64,000 bases of DNA. Origin: Candidatus Hydrogenedentota bacterium. Its GTDB lineage: Bacteria; Hydrogenedentota; Hydrogenedentia; Hydrogenedentales; SLHB01. Under the pieces are notes generated by a model. The model made no database searches. It was not told where the DNA came from and saw only the letters and a program-made list of their open reading frames with translations. Positions 41,556-49,373 of this stretch are shown one piece after another. The DNA is taken from assembly GCA_029552745.1 (NCBI GenBank), contig JAKPDK010000152.1, positions 345,902-409,901 of the forward strand, given 5' to 3'. A program made the position numbers and the translations under genes. How positions within the stretch are numbered: the stretch's first letter is position 1; every line of letters starts with the position of its first letter.

Positions 41556-43631
41556 TTACCGCTTGTAACGGACATCATAAATCCTATGGTTGATTCGACG
41601 TGCCGCTGTAACGAGCTCCGGGTAGGGAGAGTCGGTTACGGAGACAAATCCGATGTTATAGTTTTCACCATCAAACCACCTTCCCGTGATCGGCTCGTCA
41701 ATATATTGAAACCAGTGACATCCGACAAAAACGGGACAAGATGCTACACTTTCCACATAGCGACGATAAGCGCGAGCACGTTCGGTTTGGTCACGCGTTG
41801 GACACAGACCAGGATGAAACATCCCGCGGTCCAGGGCACCAAAATGGAATTCGCCCACGAGTACGGGCTTGTTGTAGTCGTTTTGACCTGTCCACTCTGC
41901 AGCGTCTAGGGTGTAATTGTACAGATTGACGCTTATGACATCTGCAACCTCGGCACACGCTCGTATCACAGGTTCCTCGGGTTTCCCCGCAAACCGACAT
42001 CCCAAATAAAGGTGATGGGGGGCATACTTTTTCACCACATTTCTCACAGTCAGAAAATAGGTCTTGGCGAAATCATAAACGTAACGGTCCATATCGGAGC
42101 GACATGTTGCATTGGGAGAAGATGGCAAACGAAGGTGGTCCCAGTCGGTTTCAGGAATTTCCCAAGCACGGCACAACTGTTCCGAACTACCATACTTGTC
42201 CATAAGTTGCTGAATAAGCATCTTACGGCACGGTTGGTCGGTAGGGGAAGACAAAGTGGCGCGTCGCGGATCTTCCCAACCCAGTTCGTTATCAACGAAA
42301 AAACCGATACATAGCGGATTGGATGCATACTTAGAAGCCATAGGACCTACGGAGGAATCTACCCTAACCGCAAAACTGGGGTCGTACACATCGTACATTT
42401 TGCTCCAATATCCAGAACCTGCCTCAATACGTCGCACTTCGCCGTGAATGCCGGTAATCGCGGTAAAGGGCAGAGGACTCTTTTCCAAAACGTCTTCCTG
42501 TGCCCACGCACCAATCGTATTGAATCCCCATGAATCCAGACGCCCATAGGCAGATTGCCTCCATCGATCTTTCCAGGGGCCTCCGTACTTTCGAATAAGA
42601 TTCGCACCATAAAAACTGAACGTCCAACCACCACCTTGAAGAATATCGGCCATACTATGGGGATTTTCGGCGAATTGATAGAGTTCTTGATAAGGAGACT
42701 CGATGTTACGGTTGGGAAGCCATTCAAACCAATCGTCCCTTTTCTCGACGAACGTACGTTCCCAGGTGCCCAGACAGTCCATTCCTAAAGAAAAGAAAAG
42801 ACGGCCATCCGGGGTCACAAGCCACCATTTGCCATCCAACTTCTCGGTACGAAACCAACCTGTGGCTTCCAGTTTGGGTCCCTTCGCCCAGCCTCGAAAA
42901 GGATTCCGGCTAAAGTCAGAAGAAAATCGTGCGAGAGTTTTTTCTTCCTTACGCGCCTCAGCGACAAGATCCTCCTCAGAGTGTATTTTGCACGGCCAAT
43001 CCTCGTGTTTGTATTGCCCGAACCGGTCAACAAAAGGAAGGCTTACCATATCTTCCAGCGGTTCTCCCTTCCCAAATAAACGGATATTATCGATGACCAA
43101 TCGATGCGGACGTGTGGGACGAGGTAAAAAGATTTGAAAGGCTACAATGCGAGTCAAATCGATCTCTTTTCCGGATGGCAACGGTCCCCAGACGGGCACA
43201 CCACGCATCCCCCAAAAAGGCTTGGGATTACGGACAAACCTCGTCATCATCGTTGTCCATTGCTTCGGTGGTGCCTCGATACAATGTGTGAGACAATTGT
43301 TCACCCCATCCGCACCCTCATTATCAACCCTCATGCAGACAGATAACGGTTGCTCCTCTGGATTAAAAATATCTACCGCTATGCCCTGATAAGAACTCCA
43401 GTCCCATGGTTTATCCCCTGCGGAGAAAAACACATTGGGCCAATCTACTTTCTGAAAATAGACTTGGAGTACTCTTCTGGCGTCTTTGCTGACAACTTTT
43501 GCGGTTGCGTGATTAAGTTGCACAATAGGCGGCAGTGTGCCTGAATCAAACGACTCAAAAACCACCGCGTCAGGAAGGTCGGCACCTATCCCACCAAACA
43601 AAGAAGCCAAAACTCCGCACAGGGCTAACAT
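41556..43631 (-). CDS. Exported GH50-like beta-agarase family glycoside hydrolase
   Basis: The protein has 691 residues with a short signal sequence (LALCGVLASLFGGIGA). Residues about 20-190 look like a carbohydrate-binding jelly-roll (VFESFDSGTLPPIV, WDWSSYQGIAVDIFNPE). The catalytic TIM barrel follows, with GRLFFSLGMDCLG, acid/base Glu in FFVDNELGWEDP and likely nucleophile Glu in LVGEFHFGALDRG. Near the end, GCHWFQYIDEPITGR is typical of GH50/agarase-like proteins. Substrate is inferred as a galactan or related glycan. The GH4 gene starts 133 bases after its stop on the same strand. Confidence 0.75.
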   Translation of the reverse strand: MLALCGVLASLFGGIGADLPDAVVFESFDSGTLPPIVQLNHATAKVVSKDARRVLQVYFQKVDWPNVFFSAGDKPWDWSSYQGIAVDIFNPEEQPLSVCMRVDNEGADGVNNCLTHCIEAPPKQWTTMMTRFVRNPKPFWGMRGVPVWGPLPSGKEIDLTRIVAFQIFLPRPTRPHRLVIDNIRLFGKGEPLEDMVSLPFVDRFGQYKHEDWPCKIHSEEDLVAEARKEEKTLARFSSDFSRNPFRGWAKGPKLEATGWFRTEKLDGKWWLVTPDGRLFFSLGMDCLGTWERTFVEKRDDWFEWLPNRNIESPYQELYQFAENPHSMADILQGGGWTFSFYGANLIRKYGGPWKDRWRQSAYGRLDSWGFNTIGAWAQEDVLEKSPLPFTAITGIHGEVRRIEAGSGYWSKMYDVYDPSFAVRVDSSVGPMASKYASNPLCIGFFVDNELGWEDPRRATLSSPTDQPCRKMLIQQLMDKYGSSEQLCRAWEIPETDWDHLRLPSSPNATCRSDMDRYVYDFAKTYFLTVRNVVKKYAPHHLYLGCRFAGKPEEPVIRACAEVADVISVNLYNYTLDAAEWTGQNDYNKPVLVGEFHFGALDRGMFHPGLCPTRDQTERARAYRRYVESVASCPVFVGCHWFQYIDEPITGRWFDGENYNIGFVSVTDSPYPELVTAARRINHRIYDVRYKR

Positions 43632-43803: not shown

Positions 43804-45915
43804 CTATTTTTTGTCTTTTATGTTGGAGTCTAACTTAACGATGAATGAATTTCCCGGGTTCTGGCCCTGCAGCGGGTTTTTAGTTGGAAAGTCGGCAGAA
43901 CCGGTAGAACCGGTCAAAAAAACGCAACCACGGGAATCAACCGCAAGCGCCGCGCCCGCTTCATCCCCACCGCCGCCTAGTCGAATAGAGTAACCTAAGC
44001 CCCCAGAAGAAGTGAACATAACCAGCGCTGCATCCTTGCCCCCGCCCTGCACGGAAGGCAAGGGATTGAAGGTCGGAAAATCAGAGGAGCGTGTGGACCC
44101 CAAAACATAGACGTTGCCATTACGATCGACCTTTATGGCGTGAGAAGCCGGACGATCATCTCCACTTCCGCCCATGTATGTTGACCAGAGTATTTCTTTG
44201 GCATCCGCTGAAATCTTTGTAATGAAGAAATCAGCCGCTCCGCCGGCATAAGCGGATTGCACCGGTTGCTTCGTTGGGAAATCCACGGACGATGTATCTC
44301 CAGTGACAAAAACATTACCTTTTGCATCAACGGCGACGCCTTCTCCTTTGTCGTTACCCGTGCCTCCCAAGAACGTGGAAAATACAAGCTGGGTTCCATC
44401 GGGATTGAATTTGGTTACAAAAACGTCAAGTTCGCCGAAATCCCCTGATGGATCTCCGCCAGCATGTTTAGGCTGGATTACGCCCTCGGTTACAGGAAAG
44501 TCTTTGGACCCCGTATATCCGGTGACAAAGACATGTCCCTGAGGATCCATGGCACAACCCCACGCCTTGTCGTAACCGTGGCCACCCAGAAAACTGCAGA
44601 AAACTAAACCAGTTCCCGATGGGTTAAATTTCGCGACAAATGCATCTTCTGCTGTAAAGGGTTTCCCGCTCTTTTTTGTAGGATCAGGCTCTTTCGGGTC
44701 TGTATAAACCGGCTTGAACGAATTGGGCGTGGTTGGAAAGTCGGTAGAATGGGTGCCTCCGACGACTGCGCAGTTTCCCGCCGCGTCATAGGCTATCCCT
44801 CGCACCTCTTCCATGGACTCTCCGCCAAGCAGAGTAGAGTAAACGAGGTGATCGCCATTCGGGTGAAGTTTTGCCACGATATTGTCATAGGTCGCTTTAT
44901 GAACCCGACAAAACGCCTCCTCCGTCGTGGGAAAGTCTGGGGACTTCGTACGACCGCCCAAATAAACATACCCTTTCTCATCTACCGCCATTGCTTTGAT
45001 ATCGTCGTCGTTGGACCCACCTATATACGTGGCATAAAGAATGGTATCGAGTTCCGGATTCAGCTTGGCCACAAAAATGTCGAGTTTCCCTGCGTTTTGG
45101 TTTTGGTAGGCATTTTCTACTGGGAATGCGGAAGAATGGGTAAATCCCCCAACATAGACATTACCTTCCGCATCTACGCCGATACCTCGTGAGGATGTTG
45201 CTTCTTGGAAATAAGACGAAAATAGAAGCACCGGGTCGATAATCAAAGGTAGAGAATGGTCATATTCTCCCAAAGTGAATGTGACGTCCCCATTTGCATT
45301 GATGACGTAGGTGCAACTCACGCGCTGAACCGAACCATCCCTTTCCTGGTAGGCAAAAGGAGTCGGACAAATCATCTTTTTGGATTTTGTGCATATGACG
45401 AGGTTGCCCGTAGAATCTAAAAGAACACGCTCTGCGCCGCAGAAATGCATACGAATACGAGAAGGGTCTGCGAACGGCTCTACCACAAAATCGTATTCAA
45501 GTTTCCCTTGCGTGCCATGTAGAATCAGGTCGATTCCATCGTAAACCCTGGGGCAACGAACAGAGGCGAATAGGGGAACCCCAGACACCCATTTCGAAGG
45601 CTCATCGCCAAGCATGTAGTTTGCTTTACCACTATACTCTGCTTTTCCCTCCGGCAAAAGTAAATTATCGGTGCCAAGAAGTTGGAGAGTTATTTTCTCA
45701 CCGTTATCGAAATAGACGCCGATATTTTCCCGCGTGACCCATAAAACTTGATCAAAACCTGTCGAAGTAAAACAAATCTCTTCTGGATGTTGACCAACGT
45801 TTGCTTCAAACCACAACGGCACATTCCGCAATACGTGGTTACTCTGAGATACGGCTGGCGATGCAAGGAGACAAAAGAACACACCAAATAAAGAAACCGA
45901 CCACATTTTAGTCAT
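43804..45915 (-). CDS. SBBP-repeat beta-propeller exported protein
   Basis: The protein has 703 residues. A signal peptide ends in SPAVSQ. Residues about 30-230 match the N-terminal domain often found before SBBP repeats (WFEANVGQHPEEICF, YDGIDLILHGTQGKLEYDF). At least seven repeats follow, each with a version of AVDxxGNVYVxGxTxSxDFPT, forming a beta-propeller likely exposed at the surface. The ATG at 45915 follows GGAGG by eight bases; an ATG at 45930 overlaps that site and is unlikely. No C-terminal sorting domain is seen. Ligand unknown. Confidence 0.88.
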   Translation of the reverse strand: MTKMWSVSLFGVFFCLLASPAVSQSNHVLRNVPLWFEANVGQHPEEICFTSTGFDQVLWVTRENIGVYFDNGEKITLQLLGTDNLLLPEGKAEYSGKANYMLGDEPSKWVSGVPLFASVRCPRVYDGIDLILHGTQGKLEYDFVVEPFADPSRIRMHFCGAERVLLDSTGNLVICTKSKKMICPTPFAYQERDGSVQRVSCTYVINANGDVTFTLGEYDHSLPLIIDPVLLFSSYFQEATSSRGIGVDAEGNVYVGGFTHSSAFPVENAYQNQNAGKLDIFVAKLNPELDTILYATYIGGSNDDDIKAMAVDEKGYVYLGGRTKSPDFPTTEEAFCRVHKATYDNIVAKLHPNGDHLVYSTLLGGESMEEVRGIAYDAAGNCAVVGGTHSTDFPTTPNSFKPVYTDPKEPDPTKKSGKPFTAEDAFVAKFNPSGTGLVFCSFLGGHGYDKAWGCAMDPQGHVFVTGYTGSKDFPVTEGVIQPKHAGGDPSGDFGELDVFVTKFNPDGTQLVFSTFLGGTGNDKGEGVAVDAKGNVFVTGDTSSVDFPTKQPVQSAYAGGAADFFITKISADAKEILWSTYMGGSGDDRPASHAIKVDRNGNVYVLGSTRSSDFPTFNPLPSVQGGGKDAALVMFTSSGGLGYSIRLGGGGDEAGAALAVDSRGCVFLTGSTGSADFPTKNPLQGQNPGNSFIVKLDSNIKDKK

Positions 45916-45970
45916 GGGACAAACCTCCATTTTTTATTTGCCTGATACTCTCGACTGTCAAAACAAAAAA

Positions 45971-45994
45971 GGACTTGCGCAACCGCGCAAGTCC
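45971..45994 (-). terminator. Intrinsic terminator after the tRNA-like element
   Basis: On the minus strand a perfect 10-bp stem (GGACTTGCGC with GCGCAAGTCC, loop GGTT) is followed by TTTTTTGTTTT. It closes the tRNA-like unit that starts at 46076. It resembles the terminator after the true initiator tRNA at 57023-57046. Confidence 0.85.
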
Positions 45995-46002
45995 GAAAAA
46001 AC

Positions 46003-46076
46003 TGGCTAGAAGAGGTATTTGGACCTCCTCTTACAGGGTATTAAACCCGTACGCTATCAAACTACTTCACCCCGCA
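46003..46076 (-). pseudogene. Degenerate initiator-tRNA-like element (tRNA-fMet paralogue, anticodon altered)
   Basis: This 74-base minus-strand segment aligns along its length with the genuine tRNA-fMet at 57058-57134. Shared parts are the 5' end GCGGGGTG, the D-arm region (AGTAGTTTGATAGC against AGCAGTCTGGTAGC), the anticodon-loop flanks GGG and CCC, and a terminal CCA. The anticodon loop reads TTTAATA instead of CTCATAA, so CAT is lost and position 37 is T. T-arm and acceptor pairing are weakened, and the T-loop lacks TTCGA. It has its own promoter and terminator in the same places as the true gene. It is therefore either a decaying duplicate or an RNA with a new role. Translation as a normal tRNA is unlikely. 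Confidence 0.6.
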
Positions 46077-46087
46077 AACGTACGACA

Positions 46088-46116
46088 ATGCTACTCCCCT
46101 AAATTGTAATTGTCAA
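46088..46116 (-). promoter_or_regulatory. Sigma-70 promoter of the tRNA-like unit
   Basis: On the minus strand TTGACA (46111-46116) and TAGCAT (46088-46093) are 17 bases apart, placing transcription start just before the tRNA-like body. The layout matches the true tRNA-fMet promoter (TTGACT, 17 bases, TAACAT). Confidence 0.65.
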
Positions 46117-46220
46117 AAACTTATATGAGCCCAATGACTTTGGCAGTTCTCGTGGGTGTGCTAAAAAAATGAAGAAAATTACTCAATGAATAACACAACC
46201 CAAGCCGTGCAACTCTTCCG

Positions 46221-49200
46221 TTATTTTGTGGGTAGCGTTTCCACATTTCCAAGTGGGAGAAACCAACGCCAGCATCTCGCTGAAAATCTACTTAAATCAT
46301 CCAGAAGAGAGTAGATGACTGGAATGACAACCATAGTAAGAAAGGTACCAACAAGCAAACCCGAGGCAGCAACTATACCTAGGGGACTCATACGCTCCAG
46401 CCCGACCGCCATCTCGAAAATGAGAGGAACAAGGCCAATGATAGTTGAAACTGTGGTCATCAAAACCGGACGCAAACGCAATAATACGGACTGTAGGATA
46501 GCCTCGTCCCGCACCATGCCTTTAGCCCGCGCGTTGATGATGAAATCAAGTAGAAGGATACTGTTGTTAACGATGGTGCCGCCTAAGAGTATCATGCCCA
46601 TCATGGCAGGTTTGCACATGGGTTTATCAAAAATAAGCAACCCCCAAAAACCGCCAGCAATACCAAGAGGTATAGCGGCCATAATGGTGAACGGATGCAA
46701 GAACGACTCGAACATAGCCACCAACAAGATAAACAGAAGCACAAAACCAATTATGAGAGCTTGTCCCATTTCCTGTTGCCCTACTTGCAAATCCTCTGCC
46801 GAACCAGAGACTTGGATTTTGTACCCGAGGGGGAGTTTTAAGCCAGCAAGTTTTTCTTCCACCTTTTTGCCGACCTGGCCAATGGTATATCCCCGATTAA
46901 CGCCCGTGATACTTATGGTGCGTACCAGGTCTTCGCAAGTAAGAAACGGCTCAGTTTTGTGTGGATAAATTTCAGCCAAGCTGCGCAAAGGCACCTGACC
47001 GACGGGAGTGTCGAGGTACACGTCTAGTAACTGGGATGGGGACTCTATATCGGCACCTCGGTACTGTACAGTAATGGGGATATCAAGATACCCGTTTAAC
47101 CGCATGAGCGTAGATGAAACACCCTTGACAGCTGTCCGCAGTTCCGTAGCAATGGCGGGAGGTGAGACCCGATAAAGCTCCGCCAGCTCTGGATTAATGA
47201 CGATATGACGATCGCCCTTGTCTATATACCAACTGCGACGGACATCCACAAGACCTGGTGTCCCATCAAGCGCTAGCAAAACATCGCCAGCCAATTCGTC
47301 CAGTTTACGTGCGTCAGGTCCACTGATGATGACATCTAGGGGAGCACGCGTTGTCGAGAGGGGAGTGGCACCGTACTCCGCCATAGAGAAATCCTTGACG
47401 CCTTGGATTTTTCGTAAAGCAGTGCGCCATTGATCCTGAATTTTCCAAATATCATCTACTCGTTTCGTCCGATCAACGAGCGTAACTTTAATACGGCCGG
47501 ACTGCACCGTAGACTCACCGCCACCAAAGCTGATCTCCCCGGGTTCCGAACCGACCACAGAGGACATCATAAGTATCCCGGGTGTTTCATAAAGCATTGA
47601 CTCGATTTCGGTTAGAGTTGCTTCGACTTGACGCGGTGTATAGTCCGAAGGTGTTTTAAAATCAATATTGACAATCCCCGTGTCCATGGCCGGCATTAAC
47701 TCTCCACCAACAAGCGGCTTAACTTGCCTCATGGTCACGATAAAGAAAACAAGGGCAGCCACAACAACAAGCCAACGATGACTCAGCGCCCTGCGCAAAA
47801 TCCCAAGATAAAAACGCCCCAACCAATCGACTCCTCGGTCAGTAACCGATACGATCCGCTCTATAAAATTGCGTTTTCGTTCACCTCTTGCCAGCAGGCG
47901 GGACGCCATTAAAGGCACAACAGTCAACGACGCGAGCAAAGACCCAACAAGAGTAGCGGAGATGACTAAGTTGAGTGGACGCATAGTTTGCTGGGTGTAA
48001 CCACCCGCAAACATGACCGGAATAAGTACAATAACCGTGGTTAACATCCCTGCCGTAACAGCCAGCGCCACTTCCTGGGCACCAAACAAGGCAACTTCTT
48101 GCGGGCTTTTGCTTGGGTCCTCTCGATGATGGCGATAGATATTCTCTAACACCACAACGGAAGCATCAACGACCATACCAACTGAAATGATCATACCTGA
48201 GAGCGTGACCATGTTGACGGTGTAGGGACTAAACCAAAGCACCACGACACCAACGAAAAAGGACATAGGAATACTTACAGACACGACAAGCGCCGCCCGA
48301 ATGTCTGCGAGGAAAAAGAAGATTATCAACACCGTGAGAATAACAGCCTGATACAAAGACGACCACATGCCCTGCACGTTCAGATCTATGATCGGCTGCT
48401 GGTCATCGGTAATTACAAAATCAATATCGGGATACTCCGCCTGGAGTCTAGGTAAATATGCCTTGACATTGCGTATCGCCGCGACCGTCGCACCATGTTC
48501 CGGCCGTAAAATGTTGACAGCAATAGCCGCCTTACCATTGCCATGGTAAATACTGCGTTGTTCCACTTCGCCCAATTTAACTTCCGCGACATCGCGCAAG
48601 CGAAGCACCCCCCCGTCTTCGAAACGCACCGGAGTTTGGCGAATCTCGTCAAGATTCGTAAACTCGCCGAAGACCTTCAAAAGATATTCTCGTTGTGAAG
48701 AGTAGACTGTGCCCGCTGGCGCGGAAACGTTATGCCGAGCCAGTGCCGCCAAGATATCGGCTAACGTCAAATTGTGCGCGGCAAGATCTTCACGCCCGAC
48801 GAGGACCTTTACCTCAGGTCGATGAGCGCCAAAAACATCCACATCAGCTACACCGGGAATATTCAGTAACTCGTCTTCAATCTGATTTTCCGCAAGCAAC
48901 CGTATTTGCGAAAGATCTTTCGCTTCGTTGCCGGGTTTGGGAGAGAGGGACAACGTTAAAAGAGGACGTGTCGCATCCGAAATACTGAAGATACGCGGCT
49001 CGAGGATGTCCCCCGGTAAAGAGGCACGAACACGGTTCAACGCGTTCTGCACATCTAGAACAGCTTCTCCCAAGTCCTTGCTATAGAAGAACTCGGCATT
49101 GATTGATGAGACCTCATCCCGACTTGTGCTTCTGATACGATTGAGCCCACTAAGCGTGTTCAGTTCCTTTTCAATGGCTTGAGTCACTTTGTCGGCGATG

Positions 49201-49373
49201 TCGTCGGCATCGGCTCCAGGCCATACCGTAACTACAACGACCTGCGGAGGAACCGTGTCCGGAAAAAGATCCGTGGGCATACGGAAAAAGGCAAAGACTG
49301 CAAGGGCTGCGATAAAAAGAGAAGCTGCGATCACCGCATAGGGGGATTTTATGGAGAAATCCGAGAGGTTCAT
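46221..49373 (-). CDS. RND multidrug efflux permease (AcrB/MdtB-like)
   Basis: The protein has 1050 residues with the RND plan of twelve spans and two large periplasmic loops. It starts MNLSDFSIKSPYAVIAASLF and shows FPDTVPPQVVVVTVWPGADADDIADKVT, SGMIISVGMVVDASVVVLENIYRH (span 4 acidic residues) and IGLVPLIFEMAVGLERMSPLG. It exports small molecules using the proton gradient. It is the last gene of the operon; its start overlaps the adaptor gene by four bases. Hydrophobic-compound pumps (HAE-1) are the closest type; substrate unknown. Confidence 0.95.
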   Translation of the reverse strand: MNLSDFSIKSPYAVIAASLFIAALAVFAFFRMPTDLFPDTVPPQVVVVTVWPGADADDIADKVTQAIEKELNTLSGLNRIRSTSRDEVSSINAEFFYSKDLGEAVLDVQNALNRVRASLPGDILEPRIFSISDATRPLLTLSLSPKPGNEAKDLSQIRLLAENQIEDELLNIPGVADVDVFGAHRPEVKVLVGREDLAAHNLTLADILAALARHNVSAPAGTVYSSQREYLLKVFGEFTNLDEIRQTPVRFEDGGVLRLRDVAEVKLGEVEQRSIYHGNGKAAIAVNILRPEHGATVAAIRNVKAYLPRLQAEYPDIDFVITDDQQPIIDLNVQGMWSSLYQAVILTVLIIFFFLADIRAALVVSVSIPMSFFVGVVVLWFSPYTVNMVTLSGMIISVGMVVDASVVVLENIYRHHREDPSKSPQEVALFGAQEVALAVTAGMLTTVIVLIPVMFAGGYTQQTMRPLNLVISATLVGSLLASLTVVPLMASRLLARGERKRNFIERIVSVTDRGVDWLGRFYLGILRRALSHRWLVVVAALVFFIVTMRQVKPLVGGELMPAMDTGIVNIDFKTPSDYTPRQVEATLTEIESMLYETPGILMMSSVVGSEPGEISFGGGESTVQSGRIKVTLVDRTKRVDDIWKIQDQWRTALRKIQGVKDFSMAEYGATPLSTTRAPLDVIISGPDARKLDELAGDVLLALDGTPGLVDVRRSWYIDKGDRHIVINPELAELYRVSPPAIATELRTAVKGVSSTLMRLNGYLDIPITVQYRGADIESPSQLLDVYLDTPVGQVPLRSLAEIYPHKTEPFLTCEDLVRTISITGVNRGYTIGQVGKKVEEKLAGLKLPLGYKIQVSGSAEDLQVGQQEMGQALIIGFVLLFILLVAMFESFLHPFTIMAAIPLGIAGGFWGLLIFDKPMCKPAMMGMILLGGTIVNNSILLLDFIINARAKGMVRDEAILQSVLLRLRPVLMTTVSTIIGLVPLIFEMAVGLERMSPLGIVAASGLLVGTFLTMVVIPVIYSLLDDLSRFSARCWRWFLPLGNVETLPTK

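Follow-up and report, generated by a model that had tools for sequence, protein, structure and literature searches.

Pseudo-tRNAs and tRNA gene fragments in prokaryotes

Fragments and pseudogenes of tRNA genes that derive from mobile element insertion or from CRISPR arrays are described in archaeal gene sets (PMC9897764). In Bacillus cereus, the pseudo-tRNA known as tRNA-Other is tRNA-like, carries a Trp anticodon, lies inside a longer transcript and has measured deletion effects (PMC3399842). Within the literature examined, tRNA-Other appears to be the nearest described pseudo-tRNA that is not involved in translation. The few terms tried against the open-access literature brought up no small RNA that originates from the gene of an initiator tRNA.

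Here we analyze an element in a 64,000-nucleotide stretch of a Candidatus Hydrogenedentota contig (hereafter, the window) that resembles the transcription unit of the initiator tRNA gene (tRNA-fMet). Similarly to the fragments in PMC9897764, the element is a non-canonical tRNA relative that exists besides an intact tRNA gene set, but in contrast to the fragments as presented there, it is equipped with promoter-like and terminator sequences of its own and falls below even a low-scoring tRNA call. As with tRNA-Other, we are apparently dealing with a tRNA relative that lacks a role in translation and is possibly part of a regulatory RNA; however, the tRNA fold is gone from the element, which would form a unit of about 115 bases and is known from its sequence.

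Layout of the locus

The element is located between the stop codon of an efflux transporter gene (46221) and the start of a beta-propeller gene (taken as 45915). The initial annotation reported a promoter, a 5' end, a CCA and a terminator hairpin, as well as a true tRNA-fMet gene about 11 kb away; all these landmarks were recovered, on the minus strand, where the annotation had put them, and the tRNA-fMet gene was identified by both ARAGORN and Rfam. The features are as follows.

46116-46088, minus strand: promoter-like site TTGACA-17-TAGCAT with 10 of 12 consensus bases (sequence, consensus scan, and rarity in the window)
46116-46111 and 46093-46088, minus strand: the -35 hexamer TTGACA and, after 17 bases, the -10 hexamer TAGCAT of this site (sequence)
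46076-46003, minus strand: tRNA-fMet-like body of 74 bases with the 3' end CCA (homology; no tRNA in ARAGORN or Rfam)
45994-45965, minus strand: intrinsic terminator, with a perfect 10-pair stem (45994-45971), the loop GGTT, and then T6 to 45965
46083-45966, minus strand: predicted transcript of about 115 bases, with start and end inferred from the promoter and terminator positions
46083-46049, minus strand: predicted hairpin P1 (fold), with 7 outer pairs that tRNA-fMet lacks
46048-46036, minus strand: predicted hairpin P2 (fold), built on GGG/CCC of the former anticodon stem
46034-46005, minus strand: predicted hairpin P3 (fold), with 9 continuous pairs (46031-46008) replacing the T-arm and the 3' acceptor strand
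57134-57058, minus strand: true tRNA-fMet (CAT) gene (ARAGORN, Rfam)
57174-57146, minus strand: promoter-like site of tRNA-fMet, TTGACT-17-TAACAT, 11 bases before the tRNA (sequence)
57047-57022, minus strand: terminator of tRNA-fMet, identical in type to that of the element
43804-45915, minus strand: downstream gene, DUF7948 and SBBP beta-propeller repeats; start codon picked by eye after GGAGG
46221-49373, minus strand: upstream gene, AcrB/AcrD/AcrF-type efflux transporter (RND; domain match), with its stop at 46221

The beta-propeller gene is adjoined by a gene (41556-43631 of the window) that contains an agarase CBM-like domain and also matches glycosyl hydrolase 42.

On balance, we favor the interpretation that the element is a duplicate of tRNA-fMet that is dead as a tRNA but whose transcription unit is likely still active and would yield a transcript of about 115 bases that is not involved in translation. 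Under this scenario, the tRNA-fMet gene would have been duplicated, and the copy would have died as a tRNA with its promoter-like and terminator sequences persisting. Because these sequences, the terminator being of the tRNA type, are intact, the element would still be transcribed. Transcription by RNA polymerase would run from about 46083-46080 to about 45966, and the resulting RNA, predicted to fold into three hairpins followed by the terminator, would be neither charged nor used for initiation. In the long run, the element would act only as a transcription stop between the efflux pump and beta-propeller genes, while the body drifts.

Loss of tRNA identity

The true tRNA-fMet, the likely parent, is a member of the Rfam family RF00005 (63.5 bits), whereas the element, searched with 301 bases, showed no RF00005 match up to an E value of 10. 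ARAGORN made no tRNA call on the element either. The sub-threshold Rfam matches of the element, to OmrA-B (E 0.17), CRISPR-DR63 (E 0.44) and RmaA (E 6.7), were treated as chance.

The anatomy of the body agrees with these results. As originally described, the anticodon loop is TTTAATA and TTCGA has disappeared from the T-arm, the T-loop region now reading TCCAAAT. The GGG/CCC of the anticodon stem is present, but the stem of the D-arm, which had also been reported as retained, is not kept: GAGC/GCTC of tRNA-fMet is replaced by AAGT/GCGT at equal offsets. The acceptor strands would form mostly G-T pairs and one C-C opposition. A cloverleaf drawn by homology reaches only -2.4 kcal/mol, compared to -24.4 kcal/mol for the best fold. 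Thus, the element has neither a tRNA call by the tRNA finder or Rfam nor a cloverleaf with acceptor, D, anticodon and T stems. The possibility that the element works as a tRNA with an altered anticodon (UAA by position) was considered and rejected: there is no tRNA fold, and a regular tRNA-Leu(taa) exists in the genome.

Resemblance to the tRNA-fMet transcription unit

In the element (46116-45965, minus strand), promoter, body and terminator are ordered as in the tRNA-fMet unit (57174-57022). The initial annotation held that the 74-base element aligns end to end with the tRNA-fMet gene, and the resemblance goes beyond chance for the unit as a whole. The whole-unit local alignment score was 78, whereas none of 3000 dinucleotide shuffles scored above 49. 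Against 15,330 real sequence windows, drawn from the 64-kb window minus the parent and from 25 RND gene loci (L141-L165), the best offset of the element scored 67 and the best unrelated one 45; further offsets of the element itself, which belong to this set, likewise scored high. This does not extend to the body alone: in the same set, the 77-base tRNA body gave 37 for the element and up to 39 for unrelated windows, that is, not above chance, and the first 43 body bases gave 33, a tie with other windows. The case therefore rests on the order and near-equal spacing of promoter, 5' part and terminator, together with the terminator type, and the descent of the body is inferred from its context because the body by itself shows no significant similarity to tRNA-fMet. 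When the element was compared with the 45 distinct tRNA genes called in the genome, the best match was tRNA-fMet (score 28; runner-up, 14). A duplicated stretch surrounding the element and tRNA-fMet units was not seen.

We regard it as very unlikely that the element is an unrelated RNA gene that was never a tRNA gene and resembles one by chance. The chance-level score of the body would be expected under this explanation, as would the weakness of the plain BLAST matches of the tRNA-fMet unit in the window (two pieces, E 0.028 for the terminator and 0.34 for the 5' part), and promoters and terminators can be alike through shared function. However, the unit scores well above both unrelated windows and shuffles, the spacing is near parental, and the terminator is of a type that is tied to tRNA genes in this order.

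A terminator type associated with tRNA genes

A shared terminator, GGACTTRC...GYRRGTCC followed by a T-run, is found behind Met, Leu, Glu, Lys, Ala, Ser, Asp, Arg and Pro tRNA genes across the order. When the 68 genomes of the order were searched with the pattern GGACTTRC-N(4-16)-GYRRGTCCTTTT, 49 matches were obtained, distributed over 30 genomes, and the backwards control pattern yielded one. All 49 were read, and the 15 without an ARAGORN call were sorted by eye. A tRNA gene or part of one precedes 45 of the 49: an intact tRNA called by ARAGORN in 34 cases (20 of these are Met(cat), initiator and elongator pooled), a tRNA 3' part without a 5' half in seven, and a tRNA interrupted by Ns or a contig end in four. 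The remainder consists of the opposite strand of an already counted fMet terminator, two copies of one non-tRNA sequence in a single genome, and the terminator of the element itself. In its own genome, this terminator type occurs only behind tRNA-fMet and behind the element. In the element, 8 bases separate the CCA from the stem, compared to 10-21 in the 34 intact cases.

Because the terminator type is bound to tRNA genes, it connects the element with a tRNA gene without recourse to the body, the similarity of which is weak. An origin from the initiator tRNA gene is thus supported: the unit and the terminator type both indicate descent of a pseudogene from a tRNA gene, with the body alone not significant. 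In practice, the GGACTTRC...GYRRGTCC terminator can serve in this order as a marker of tRNA genes as well as of their displaced halves.

Such displaced halves are present in several relatives. Parts of the tRNA-fMet 3' region, mostly from the anticodon loop on, carry the tRNA-type terminator and lack the 5' half (L118, 1173-1256; L121, 1049-1130), and the sequences preceding these two halves look similar in the respective genomes, G008 and G017. Likewise, tRNA-fMet 3' parts without a 5' half are located upstream of the terminator in L181, L182, L183 and L201, and 3' parts of other tRNAs, also without a 5' half, in L169, L176 and L200 (judged by eye, the tRNA in L176 is elongator Met and that in L200 is Asp). 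The displaced tRNA-fMet 3' parts are probably attachment sites of integrative elements in tRNA-fMet.

That the element itself is such a remnant, a displaced tRNA-fMet piece left by an integrative element, is extremely improbable on anatomical grounds. The fragments in relatives share its terminator type and start at the anticodon loop, but they keep a near-normal 3' half and lack the 5' half, whereas the element retains the promoter and 5' part and has diverged in its 3' half.

Search for relatives of the element

The search model R1 was derived from a single sequence, that of the element, supplied as two identical rows. Applied to 68 genomes of the order (E up to 0.1, strict filters), R1 recovered only the element. 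Thus, the search for the element in related genomes suggested by the initial annotation yielded no counterpart in the 67 other genomes, none of which belongs to the same genus. Over 21 sources including the window, R1 matched the element, four tRNA-fMet genes in relatives (E 0.11-4.3) and three chance-level pieces (E 2-7.4). BLAST of the element against 60 genomes (its own and 59 relatives) retrieved, besides itself, only short pieces, mostly of the terminator, the best of which (E 2.2e-4) is a displaced tRNA half in G008. The phage and plasmid collections contained no match to the element.

The upstream RND gene was represented by 25 loci, and its closest named relatives are in a Sumerlaeota MAG (77% identity, the best) and in Hydrogenedentota, Nitrospiraceae and Proteobacteria MAGs (76% each). 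A copy of the element was absent from ten of these loci by R1 (L141-L148, L150 and L153) and from six by ARAGORN (L141-L146); the remaining 15 of the 25 served as unrelated sequence in the window-score comparison only. The downstream gene has no confirmed relative in the genome-contig collection; relatives were found in 34 of the 60 genomes, and the R1 search of downstream-gene loci covered five (L024-L027 and L030).

Decay and selection in the element

The main rival to the favored interpretation is that the former tRNA gene now encodes a three-hairpin RNA that is under selection and has other RNAs as its targets, one conceivable mode of action being the pairing of its CU-rich strand ACCUCUUCU with Shine-Dalgarno regions. 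The element would then be a newborn bacterial small RNA, in which the initiator tRNA gene kept its promoter and terminator and the middle was rebuilt into a regulatory RNA. We advance this possibility tentatively, as clearly the less probable one.

Several features would be expected of such an RNA. The promoter-like site is strong: only 6 of the 127,942 window positions, that of the element included, match 10 or more of the 12 consensus bases when the spacer is 17 bases long. The four differences between the terminator stem and that of the parent are all pair-preserving. When six changes over 24 bases were simulated starting from the present parent form, all pairs were kept in 616 of 100,000 runs, and with four stem changes, in 899 of 100,000; starting from a perfect-stem ancestor, as seen in some relatives, this was the case in 24,853 of 100,000. 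The RNA from 46083 to the CCA folds at -29.8 kcal/mol, with only 2 of 2000 shuffles as stable (12 and 52 of 2000 for two alternative start points), and it contains helices that tRNA-fMet lacks. In simulated decay of the parent with a random leader, the stability of leader plus body was reached in 58 of 5000 cases. In these models, the stable fold and the pair-preserving terminator changes would fit selection on an RNA.

Other observations run against an exapted RNA. Bodies as stable as that of the element arose in 320 of 5000 simulated decays, and a hairpin helix of at least 9 pairs arose in 486 of 5000. Among the 19 body substitutions relative to tRNA-fMet, 14 are GC-to-AT and 2 AT-to-GC (p 0.04 relative to available sites), along with 11 gap columns, and this lean fits decay. 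As modeled, neutral decay would account for the body not badly. Furthermore, the CU-rich strand is buried within the predicted P3, and the strictly filtered search of the order yielded no counterpart in the 67 other genomes.

The claim that promoter and terminator are kept while the body drifts depends on the reference. Hexamers and terminator stem are changed at 6 of 32 positions, compared to 19 of 28 in the promoter spacer taken together with the 11 bases that follow the -10 hexamer (p 0.0002), a difference that would also be expected of an exapted RNA. The difference is not clear against the body, where 19 of 70 aligned positions (p 0.46) or, counting gaps, 30 of 81 columns (p 0.07) are changed. 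As for the suggestion of an expressed tRNA-derived RNA, the tRNA origin is supported and, given the terminator type and the rare promoter, the transcription unit is likely live; the step to function is thinly supported, with no counterpart in the 67 genomes under strict filters and with a body that neutral decay would explain not badly.

If the RNA is made and used, the element would be a clean case of small-RNA birth, in which a tRNA gene contributes both a promoter and a terminator, each of them strong, and change is required in the middle only. Even if dead, the element would show that the transcription unit of a tRNA gene can persist after the tRNA itself is lost.

Position relative to the downstream gene

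The terminator lies on the strand of the beta-propeller gene and ends 50 bases ahead of its start codon (45915), and a scan of 45850-46250 gives no second promoter on that strand. The promoter and terminator could serve the beta-propeller gene, with the tRNA-derived leader setting the frequency of polymerase read-through. We consider such a leader attenuator unlikely because the sole antiterminator candidate is far weaker than the terminator: no competing structure was found except for one by-eye candidate (AGGUCC with GGACUU) at -31.7 kcal/mol, compared to -49.3 kcal/mol for the predicted transcript stretch 46083-45966, in which the terminator stem has a pairing probability above 0.99. In addition, inspection by eye revealed TTGACA-17-AATAAA at 45961-45933, behind the terminator, a site missed by the rule of the scan; a start from this promoter-like site would fall inside the Shine-Dalgarno site.

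The initiator tRNA of Escherichia coli has the C1-A72 combination. The initiator tRNA of the window has C1 and U72 (57134 and 57062), as do those of all 30 tRNA-fMet loci listed (L083-L112).
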